64,000 nucleotides of DNA from an uncultured Bacteroidales bacterium. Lineage in GTDB: Bacteria; Bacteroidota; Bacteroidia; Bacteroidales; Paludibacteraceae. The notes under the pieces were generated by a model that saw only the letters and a list, made by a program, of their open reading frames with translations, ran no database searches and was not told where the DNA came from. The DNA lies in the NCBI GenBank assembly GCA_902766045.1, contig CACXCA010000010.1, positions 1 through 64,000 on the forward strand, given 5' to 3'. Every line of letters starts with the position of its first letter. Positions within the stretch are counted from its first letter, which is position 1. Shown here one piece after another: positions 23,594 through 25,624 of the stretch. Made by a program: the position numbers and the translations under genes.

Positions 23594-24073
23594 CTATTTT
23601 TTCTTAGGACGTTCAATACTAATTTCCTCAACCATGTCACCTTCTTCGAAGATACCGACCTGCTTTGTTCCACTTGCATAGTAGTACGTACCATTTCCAT
23701 CGAACTTACCGCCTTTGAATTCACCTTCATAACGATCTCCTGTAGAATATGTATATACTCCTTTTCCATCAGGATATCCAGCTTTGAACTCACCGACATA
23801 GACATCTCCCGTTGGATATGTGAACTTTCCTTTTCCTTCACGAACACCAGCCTTAAAGTCTCCTTCATACTTAGCACCACTCTTGAAAGTATAAGTTCCT
23901 TTTCCTTCAAACTTTCCCTCCTTAAATGTTCCTGAATAAACTTCTCCATCTTCAAATGTGTAGGTACCCTTTCCGTCTCTACACTTACCTTTACAACGAG
24001 CTGCAGCCCCAGCCTCAAAACATATTAAAGAAAAAATAGCTATAACTGCTAAAAATTTCGTCTTCATAATCAT
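23594..24073 (-). CDS. Secreted MORN-repeat protein
   Basis: After a signal peptide (to about E-A-G-A-A-A) the protein consists of five to six MORN repeats of about 23 residues, each with the pattern G-x-G-x-Y-T-F-x-x-G-x-x-Y-x-G-x-F-K. It ends in a basic tail, R-P-K-K-K. MORN repeats form extended beta-hairpin stacks, often binding lipids or proteins; the specific role is unknown. Two ATGs (24073 and 24067) are possible, and the second gives the more usual M-K-T-K start. A consensus promoter lies upstream and a terminator downstream, so it may form a single-gene unit. Confidence 0.85.
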   Translation of the reverse strand: MIMKTKFLAVIAIFSLICFEAGAAARCKGKCRDGKGTYTFEDGEVYSGTFKEGKFEGKGTYTFKSGAKYEGDFKAGVREGKGKFTYPTGDVYVGEFKAGYPDGKGVYTYSTGDRYEGEFKGGKFDGNGTYYYASGTKQVGIFEEGDMVEEISIERPKKK

Positions 24074-24203: not shown

Positions 24204-24233
24204 TTTGTCGATGTATTTTTTTCCTTACATTTG
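24204..24233 (+). promoter_or_regulatory. trp operon promoter
   Basis: TTTG (24204-24207), an 18-bp spacer and TACATTTG (24226-24233) match the Bacteroidota promoter. Transcription would begin near 24240, just upstream of the Trp leader peptide. Confidence 0.75.
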
Positions 24234-24254
24234 CACCAAAATTAAAGAACAATT

Positions 24255-24335
24255 ATGATTATATTGAATCATACATATTGGTGGTGGCAAAGCTCAGAAC
24301 AAAAAGTTGTGAGGGCGTTTGCTCATCCTTGTTAG
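24255..24335 (+). CDS. trpL: trp operon leader peptide (26 codons, three consecutive Trp codons)
   Basis: A short frame starts with ATG at 24255 and ends with TAG at 24335. It contains three adjacent UGG codons (24279-24287) in the context H-T-Y-W-W-W-Q-S-S. It begins about 15-20 bp after the predicted transcription start. It is followed by an intrinsic terminator (24375-24411) and then trpB at 24437. Trp is a rare residue, and a WWW run in a 26-codon frame directly before a trp operon is the classic sign of ribosome-mediated attenuation: a ribosome stalled for charged tRNA-Trp changes downstream RNA folding. The UCCUUGUU at the end of the frame can pair with AACGAAGGA just before the terminator (one bulged G), which could be the antiterminator (inference). 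Confidence 0.85.
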
Positions 24336-24374
24336 ATTCAATCAAAAAGATATATAAACATAGTCAAAACGAAG

Positions 24375-24411
24375 GAGGCTCGACCATCACGGTAGAGTCT
24401 CTTATTTTTTT
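24375..24411 (+). terminator. trp attenuator (intrinsic terminator in the leader)
   Basis: Stem GAGGCTCGACC (24375-24385) pairs with GGTAGAGTCTC (24391-24401) across a 5-nt loop, with one G-U pair and one G-A mismatch. It is followed by a T-rich run (24402-24411). It lies between the Trp leader peptide and the trpB start, where a terminator makes sense only as a regulated one. Confidence 0.85.
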
Positions 24412-24436
24412 GTTAATAATTAAAACATCAAATAAT

Positions 24437-25624
24437 ATGAAATCATTCTTAGTTGACCAAAACGGATTTTATGGAGAATTCGGAGGTGCCTACATTCCAG
24501 AGATTCTCTATAAGACAGTCGAAGATCTGAAAAAAGCGTATTTACCAATCATCGAAAGTGAATCGTTTCAATCTGAATTCCGCACTTTATTACGCGACTA
24601 CGCAGGACGTCCATCTCCACTTTACTTTGCCAATCGTCTCAGCGAAAAGTACAATTGCAAAATCTACCTGAAACGAGAAGACCTGAACCACACAGGTGCT
24701 CATAAAATCAACAATGCCTTAGGTCAGGTGCTATTAGCAAAAAAAATGGGAAAGAAACGAATCATTGCAGAGACAGGTGCTGGACAGCATGGTGTTGCAA
24801 CAGCAACCGTATGTGCTCTTATGAATCTTCCTTGTCGTGTATATATGGGAGCAACCGATGTGAAACGTCAGCACATGAATGTTGAAAGAATGAAGATGTT
24901 AGGTGCGGAAGTATTTCCCGTAGAAAGCGGCAATAAAACACTAAAAGATGCAACCAATGAGGCTATTCGAGATTGGTGCTGTCATCCATCCGACACATTC
25001 TACATCATAGGTTCCACAGTAGGGCCTCACCCCTACCCCGACATGGTTGCAAGACTTCAAAGCATCATCAGCGAAGAAATAAAATGGCAACTTAAAGAGA
25101 AGGAAGGAAAGGAAGATCCTGACTATCTAATCGCTTGTGTCGGTGGTGGTAGCAATGCAGCAGGAACCATCTATCACTACATAGACAACTTAGATGTTAA
25201 AATCATATTGGCAGAGGCTGGAGGAAAAGGCGTTGACTCTGGATACACAGCAGCAACTATTCAAAAAGGCACACTGGGCATCTTACATGGTAGCAAAACG
25301 CTCACCATGCAGACTGAGGACGGTCAGATTGTGGAGCCGTATAGCATATCAGCTGGTCTTGACTATCCTGGAATAGGTCCGATACATGCCAACATTGCTC
25401 AACAGCATCGTGCAACAGTCCTTGCCATCAACGATGACGAAGCAATTCGTGCCGCATTTGAATTAACTCGATTAGAGGGAATCATCCCAGCATTGGAATC
25501 AGCCCATGCATTAGGTGTTTTACCTAAAGTTCAATTCAAACCCAACGACATTGTCGTACTGACAGTTAGCGGAAGAGGAGACAAAGATTTGGAGACTTTT
25601 CTTGCACATAAAGACGAAATATAA
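24437..25624 (+). CDS. trpB: Tryptophan synthase beta chain
   Basis: TrpB condenses indole with serine to make tryptophan, using PLP. The start at 24437 gives the normal beginning [17 protein letters not shown]; the frame is open further upstream, but that part runs through the attenuator and is not coding. The PLP lysine is K90 in [10 protein letters not shown], and the phosphate-binding loop is G-G-G-S-N-A-A-G. 395 residues, normal length. It is the first structural gene of trpBEGDCFA, and its partner trpA is the last. Confidence 0.97.

Follow-up and report, generated by a model that had tools for sequence, protein, structure and literature searches.

The window, the whole stretch of 64,000 nucleotides analysed here (contig CACXCA010000010.1 of an uncultured Bacteroidales bacterium), contains a short Trp-rich reading frame and a terminator between a promoter and trpB. 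This arrangement raises the question of whether transcription of the trp genes is controlled by a ribosome translating the leader and, if so, which pairing keeps the terminator from forming. Translation of the small Trp-rich leader peptide most likely decides whether transcription goes on. The reading as a whole, a ribosome-mediated trp operon attenuator that is a divergent relative of the Rfam family RF01692 and switches between pairings of regions 1, 2 and 4, is proposed here with good confidence. It is based on recurring parts, the covariation of three helices, the geometry of the leader and the folding of truncated transcripts; the ribosome footprint, the timing and the Trp response would follow from the attenuator model.

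Parts of the leader and their recurrence in relatives

A preliminary description of the locus had placed a promoter, a 26-codon frame with three adjacent Trp codons, an 11-bp terminator with a T-run, and trpB in this order, and the order and coordinates were borne out on direct reading of the sequence, as were the frame and its Trp codons (Table 1). The terminator and its T-run are present where they had been placed, but the stem is slightly longer than 11 bp and contains one G-A mismatch (−16.3 kcal/mol when folded alone). This stem-loop was absent from the list produced by a simple terminator scan of the window, probably because of the mismatch. The gene names of the trpBEGDCFA operon were assigned from the ORF translations. 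The divergent neighbour (23594–24073, minus strand) encodes a 159-aa repeat protein, the repeats of which resemble MORN repeats.

Table 1. Features of the trp leader region in the window
Feature	Position	Strand	Basis and remarks
Promoter, TTTG – 19-nt spacer – TACATTTG, Bacteroidota type	24204..24234	+	Read from the sequence; TTTG at 24204–24207, TACATTTG at 24227–24234; TAnnTTTG count in relatives
Leader peptide frame, 26 codons and stop	24255..24335	+	Sequence; ATG at 24255, TAG at 24333–24335; counterparts in relatives
Three adjacent Trp codons (control codons)	24279..24287	+	Sequence; TGG counts in relatives
Region 1 (CTCAGAAC)	24293..24300	+	5 nt past the last Trp codon; partner is region 2; 1:2 covariation
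Region 2 (GTTGTGAG)	24306..24313	+	Partner is region 1, or the terminator loop and 3′ arm
TCCTTGTT at the leader stop	24326..24333	+	Partner of AACGAAGGA in the preliminary description; part of the predicted stalled-state fold
AACGAAGGA	24368..24376	+	Partner of TCCTTGTT in the preliminary description; overlaps the base of the terminator 5′ arm
Terminator stem-loop	24373..24403	+	5′ arm 24373–24385, loop 24386–24390, 3′ arm 24391–24403; stem covariation in 43 relatives
Region 4, TCACGGT	24387..24393	+	Loop and top of the 3′ arm; predicted antiterminator partner of region 2
Terminator T-run	24405..24411	+	Sequence
trpB	24437..25624	+	ORF list; first gene of trpBEGDCFA, operon to 30918

The upstream TTTG of the promoter is presumably the Bacteroidota −33 element. 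A generic E. coli-type promoter scan listed no site at 24204–24234, and 60 of 99 loci (window included) had TAnnTTTG, named as the Bacteroidota −7 box in a passage of PMC9723704, in the 80 nt preceding the leader start codon, against a shuffle mean of 7.6. Searching both strands of the window gave no other short ORF with WWW (ATG start, 8–60 aa) than this frame, and 20 shuffles yielded four such ORFs in total. Across the 99 loci, the leaders contain three (64 loci) or two (35 loci) in-frame TGG codons. No Shine-Dalgarno signal was detected 5′ of the trp leaders, as SD-like 4-mers occurred in 2 of the 99 loci versus 2.1 in shuffles.

The relatives were collected by TrpB searches, which gave 110 loci: 30 from related genomes, including that of the window, and 80 titled with Bacteroidales taxa (among them Bacteroides luti, Parabacteroides, Seramator thermalis, and Paludibacteraceae and Prevotellaceae MAGs; one is titled "uncultured bacterium"). 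Conservation of the leader and its Trp codons was confirmed in the titled loci, 59 of 80 of which have a short ORF with W-W or W-x-W within 400 nt 5′ of trpB. A loose script (a Trp-codon run with a T-run later) accepted 87 of the 110 loci, some of them unlike leaders, and a stricter filter (a Trp-codon run plus a terminator hairpin) accepted 79; the 31 loci failing the latter include missed leaders (e.g., L003 and L005) and loci with trpB too near the contig end (L097 and L106).

From these loci, an alignment (A1) of 43, with the window left out, was made. The window was also excluded when the covariance model R1 was built, although its clade mates L002 and L004 were used; this model, which encodes only the 1:2 hairpin and the terminator, served to align 99 loci out of 100 sources (L067 gave no match). 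For the top-scoring R1 matches, a trp gene was present in all 58 loci, a set that includes the window's locus and several of those used in training. The leader with WWW and the terminator recur 5′ of trp genes within the order and outside it, and the earlier proposal of ribosome-mediated trp attenuation is well supported by this recurrence.

The spacing of the parts also recurs. Region 1 starts 2 or 5 nt past the last TGG in 90 of the 99 loci. Relative to where region 2 starts, the stop codon lies at −8 to +12 nt in 76 loci (exactly 4 nt in for 56 of these), 21–38 nt past this start in 17 loci, including the window, and 10–23 nt before it in 6.

Covariation and folding of the competing helices

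In the 43 aligned loci, the 1:2 helix was paired in 86.9% of the cells, with 37 double-change cells versus 9.5 in shuffles, and slid registers reached at most 41.7%. The corresponding values were 95.1%, 67 versus 17.0, and at most 53.9% for the terminator helix, and 92.1%, 27 versus 10.7, and at most 47.3% for the 2:4 helix, which is formed by region 2 with the terminator loop and the first four bases of the 3′ arm. When 2:4 pairs with a double change were counted instead of cells, these 43 loci showed no excess (3 versus 2.3 in shuffles). Within the terminator the loop bases are unpaired, so that their complementarity to region 2 is the most informative feature of this helix.

Seven or eight of the eight 2:4 pairs were kept in 80 of the 99 loci, and regions 2 and 4 formed 6.12 Watson-Crick pairs per locus with their true partners versus 5.29 (sd 0.07) with swapped ones. 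The 2:4 score was 5 or less in 13 of the 99 loci; in seven of these (L033, L036, L038, L039, L042, L048, and L062), the fixed register had missed a shifted loop partner. On the TrpB tree (90 loci), position 5, a base of region 2, changed at least six times, and the loop base followed region 2 in a mean of 3.4 of 4 independent pairs and never changed in the opposite sense (p 0.125–0.5, as four independent pairs cannot reach significance). The stem position 42:149 showed no independent covariation on this tree (1.4 with, 0.6 against, and 4.0 unchanged of 6). The alignments point to 1:2, the terminator and 2:4 as three mutually exclusive, competing helices, each of which covaries in the family.

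The 2:4 helix of the window itself consists of four Watson-Crick and three G-U pairs, with a score of 11.5, below the shuffle mean of 13.5 (all loci). The loop-plus-3′-arm pairing is weak in this copy and would be assigned to it by homology.

The preliminary description had proposed another antiterminator, UCCUUGUU near the leader stop codon with AACGAAGGA just before the terminator. This pairing does exist but was seen only in the clade of the window, where sequence translated beyond region 2 is complementary to the lowest part of the terminator 5′ arm, and in the window its duplex energy equals that of shuffles (p 0.5); in six relatives (L005 and L139 apart), p ranged from 0.025 to 0.54. As the main antiterminator it was rejected, because a 5′-arm partner was found in 1 of 79 trp leaders and because of the p of 0.5 in the window. 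The pairing TCCTTGTT:AACGAAGGA may at most be the inner part of the antiterminator in the window's clade, as the folds allow. A covariance comparison of Bacteroidales trpB upstream regions, which had been suggested as a check, brought out three covarying helices, and the covarying antiterminator of the family is predicted to be region 2 with the loop and 3′ arm rather than the pairing described earlier.

Which terminator arm is taken was compared among leader sets using one scoring rule with shuffles and a threshold of p 0.1. For the Bacteroidales trp leaders, a partner on the loop/3′ arm was found in 55 of 79 and one on the 5′ arm in 1 of 79, while 24 fell short of the threshold. Many of the 79 are close kin; when the 73 with a usable TrpB were thinned to below 90% TrpB identity, the counts were 31 and 1 of 47, and below 80% identity, 13 and 0 of 21. 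For the branched-chain (ilv) leaders of the order, of which 18 of the 19 found were entered, one being without a terminator, the loop/3′ arm scored in 0 of 17 and the 5′ arm in 14 of 17. For the his leaders of the order, the counts were 3 and 11 of 23.

Outside the order, the trp leaders had been collected with R1 and are biased towards its consensus; those of a Flavobacteriaceae-like group (inferred from group codes; 5′ of trpE) gave the loop/3′ arm in 22 of 25 and the 5′ arm in 1 of 25, and 13 others of the class or phylum gave 5 and 7, respectively, two being counted in both. Among six E. coli leaders, trpL, thrL, pheL, and ilvL gave the 5′ arm (p ≤ 0.04), hisL and leuL gave no arm signal, and none gave the 3′ arm. 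The comparison recovers the textbook form in most of the cases known to have it, and by the same measure the trp form of Bacteroidales differs from it. These results suggest that the trp switch takes the terminator by its loop and 3′ arm, whereas the E. coli switch uses the other side. A helix that merely reaches the loop was rejected as a diagnostic, as it was found in 67 of 79 trp leaders but also in 10 of 23 his and 11 of 17 ilv leaders.

Folding with masked ribosome segments, also suggested in the preliminary description, gave a divided outcome. With the full-length window transcript, the terminator was favoured in all five states, and this fold was dropped as a test of the switch for that reason; truncated transcripts, used instead, did switch. 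Region 2 could be located in 73 of the 79 loci, and in 72 of these the terminator was the more stable structure once the complete 3′ arm was out, so that the switch would have to be kinetic. RNA polymerase covers 14 nt of transcript, and from this cover the decision point was placed at 4–6 nt of the 3′ arm out. At this point, with region 1 hidden, 2:4 formed in 72 of 73 loci; with region 2 covered, the terminator nucleus formed in 69–72; and with no ribosome, 1:2 and the terminator nucleus formed in 39–58, with 2:4 still winning in 9–15. In these models, the truncated transcripts switch as the ribosome mechanism demands. For the window in the stalled state (region 1 hidden), the fold comprised an outer helix of region 2 with the loop/3′ arm and an inner helix with the TCCTTGTT:AACGAAGGA pairing.

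Proposed switch and alternative readings

In untranslated RNA, region 1 would pair with region 2, and the terminator would form. At low Trp-tRNA, the ribosome would stall at the WWW codons and cover region 1; region 2, being freed, would pair with the loop and the first 3′-arm bases as these leave RNA polymerase, so that the terminator could not close in time and trpB would be transcribed. With ample Trp, the ribosome would advance to region 2, which would be blocked or back on region 1, and the terminator would form. Such an advance would end at a stop codon positioned within or close to region 2 in most relatives and about 20 nt past it in the window's clade. For such an attenuator, read-through is predicted to respond to tRNA-Trp charging and to require translation of the leader. 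For the trp leaders of Bacteroidota more broadly, we lean towards an inverted form of attenuation, in which the freed strand captures the loop and the descending arm at the last moment; with the ilv and his leaders of the order classical and the trp leaders elsewhere in the phylum mixed, the form would have changed during evolution.

It is unlikely that the element is instead a classical attenuator of the 2:3 type (compare E. coli trp, thr, phe, and ilv), with the terminator 5′ arm bound by sequence close to the leader stop. In its favour, the window's clade has TCCTT:AAGGA, which forms part of the predicted stalled fold, one relative in the clade reaches p 0.025, and 5′-arm antiterminators are found for ilv and his within this order, but a 5′-arm partner stands above shuffles in only 1 of the 79 trp leaders of the order, and the pairing in the window equals shuffles. 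About equally improbable is a contact of region 2 with the loop only, as a pseudoknot or in pausing, with the stem staying closed and something else being the true antiterminator. On its side is the phylogenetically independent covariation at the loop base, with none at the stem base; it is opposed by the retention of seven or eight of the eight pairs in 80 of the 99 loci, four of these pairs involving stem bases, which are also held by the terminator. In geometric terms, moreover, an 8-bp helix followed by the lower 3′ strand would leave no crossing linker, and the two structures would not be able to coexist.

The complementarity of regions 2 and 4 might also be a by-product of 1:2, if region 4 resembled region 1 through hairpin duplication. 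Regions 1 and 4 are alike in many loci, yet 2:4 is paired at least as well as 1:2 (the percentages of cells given above), the loop base, without another partner, still tracks region 2, and in the diverged loci L033, L038, and L048 the terminator is different and its loop nevertheless complementary to region 2; we consider this explanation somewhat less likely again than the previous two. Control by a ligand or a protein (a riboswitch or a TRAP-like system), with the leader ORF incidental, is highly improbable: an Rfam search at E ≤ 10 gave it no support, RF01692 being the only plausible leader match, whereas the Trp codons, their spacing to region 1 and the stop position recur, and His- and branched-chain-rich leaders precede hisG and ilvD in the same order.

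Distribution and comparison with known systems

Of 393 genomes of the order, R1 matched 212 and RF01692 58 at E ≤ 0.01, 21 of the latter above the curated cut-off; R1 matches under 1e-6 were present in 107 of the 393 genomes by hand count. In a sample of the phylum, R1 matched in 99 of 395 genomes. The weaker R1 matches include false ones. Among 44 matches checked (40 loci, picked for multiple or lower-scoring matches), a downstream protein matched a trp protein of the window in 33, five of them weakly TrpB-like (27–30% identity), with one of these five reading as a cysteine synthase, and was missing in 11, several of which lie at a stretch without any ORF of 80 aa. On the window's own genome, R1 gave 12 further weak matches at E ≤ 10 (best E, 0.03).

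Several trp arrangements other than that of the window were seen. Three genomes have a tandem pair of trp attenuators directly 5′ of trpE (L171, L172, and L173 in G256, G242, and G066), and G382 has separate trpB, trpC, and trpE units with a WWW attenuator on each (L138, L169, and L170). Leaders with Trp codons also precede distant TrpB-like genes (27–30% identity to the window TrpB) at L176, L178, L179, and L206; the encoded proteins are perhaps TrpB2. At L179 (G188, C131:11500–15900), two attenuators with nearly identical terminators lie 2 kb apart, one with a Cys-rich leader (MKISAYISINCCWCCENTSKCKQFVNM) before a cysteine-synthase-like gene and the other with a WWW leader before a TrpB-like gene (28% identity), and the two have the look of a single attenuator that was duplicated and then acquired different codons. 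Cys-rich short ORFs, MTLNLNISCCCCCNVSHKNGSNDCVKM and MKINKLNNTCCCSRIKVCCR, were also seen 5′ of cysK at L356 and L350; Cys leaders as a general feature before cysK were rejected (3 of 30 loci by a loose ORF rule, L331 being doubtful).

Leaders rich in other amino acids were found before hisG and ilvD. A His-rich short ORF lies 5′ of hisG in 23 of 30 loci versus 0 of 30 on the reverse strand, and an Ile/Val/Leu-rich short ORF lies 5′ of ilvD in 19 of 28 versus 3 of 28. A His-codon pattern search in the window's genome had been dropped as too unspecific (44 matches) and was replaced by the hisG search. In the window's genome (L290, C24:87450–87911), a His leader (MLNTHHHNHHHYQR) and a terminator precede hisG, with an antiterminator signal on the 5′ arm (p 0.08). 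Since the His- and Ile/Val/Leu-rich leaders recur, leader-peptide attenuation seems to be common in the order, and the ilv and his leaders, in their classical form, are a natural comparison for the trp form.

If the proposed switch is true, attenuation in a major gut phylum would be timed differently from that in E. coli, the decision falling when the loop leaves the polymerase. Transcription and leader translation would also have to stay closely coupled, in bacteria whose translation initiation does not involve Shine-Dalgarno pairing.

This kind of element is already in print as RF01692, Bacteroid-trp, the "Bacteroidete tryptophan peptide leader RNA", which was predicted in 2010 (Weinberg et al., Table 1 of PMC2864571). 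In passages of other reports, Bacteroid-trp is likened to the E. coli leader and named before trp in Flavobacterium psychrophilum (PMC6414381), clues for leader-peptide attenuation are described upstream of amino-acid operons of this species (PMC9723704), leader-peptide-like small ORFs are mentioned in general for B. thetaiotaomicron (PMC7366714), and reference is made to a survey of amino-acid attenuators published in 2010 by Lopatovskaya et al. (PMC4833913). The earlier remark that no trp case has been worked out in Bacteroidota holds for experiments only, none having been found in the literature searched; as a prediction, the element dates from 2010.

The window scored 34.9 bits with RF01692 (E 0.014 for 271 bases), below the gathering cut-off of 49 bits, which was passed by 8 of the 12 related loci entered (6 of the 9 from the order; L143, L147, and L204 lie outside it). 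R1, which scored 58.2 bits on the window (E 4.8e-9), also matches the RF01692-positive L143, L147, and L204, which are absent from its alignment, and so provides the homology link. The element in the window lies upstream of trp genes and has a leader frame with Trp codons, as expected of RF01692, and it shares with the family the position, the Trp codons, the inner 1:2 hairpin and the phylum. By these comparisons, the window copy appears to be a divergent, below-threshold relative of RF01692. Besides the 1:2 hairpin, the RF01692 model covers a helix around the Trp codons, and it stops in the terminator 5′ arm; in contrast to the present model, it is without the terminator hairpin and the antiterminator of region 2 with the loop/3′ arm. 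The three-helix anatomy and the wider genome coverage of R1 are added here, giving a definite three-helix model for a family that, in the parts of the literature searched, has otherwise been a bare prediction since 2010.

Attenuation of the E. coli trpL type involves control codons, leader hairpins, a terminator, and the ribosome as the sensor. The window has a short ORF with tandem Trp codons and an intrinsic terminator between the leader and the first gene; mutually exclusive 1:2, antiterminator and terminator helices are found in the family, with 2:4 weak in the window copy. The E. coli form of antiterminator, on the 5′ arm, was not borne out, given the single case among 79 trp leaders and the candidate in the window at the level of shuffles. 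The leader-peptide attenuators of F. psychrophilum belong to the same phylum and share the principle, and the passages of PMC9723704 and PMC6414381 are without an antiterminator topology. Narrow searches on loop/3′-arm antiterminators found no description, in the literature searched, of trp antitermination through the loop and descending arm. The Bacteroidales trp element shares control codons, leader hairpins, terminator, and, as proposed, ribosome sensing with E. coli trpL, thrL, pheL, and ilvL, whereas the E. coli antiterminators take the terminator 5′ arm and the Bacteroidales trp antiterminator would take the loop and 3′ arm; unlike E. coli trpL, the Bacteroidales trp leaders are also without a Shine-Dalgarno signal. 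The sequence comparisons support the view that a trp switch capturing the loop and descending arm of the terminator is a variant of a familiar class of mechanism.
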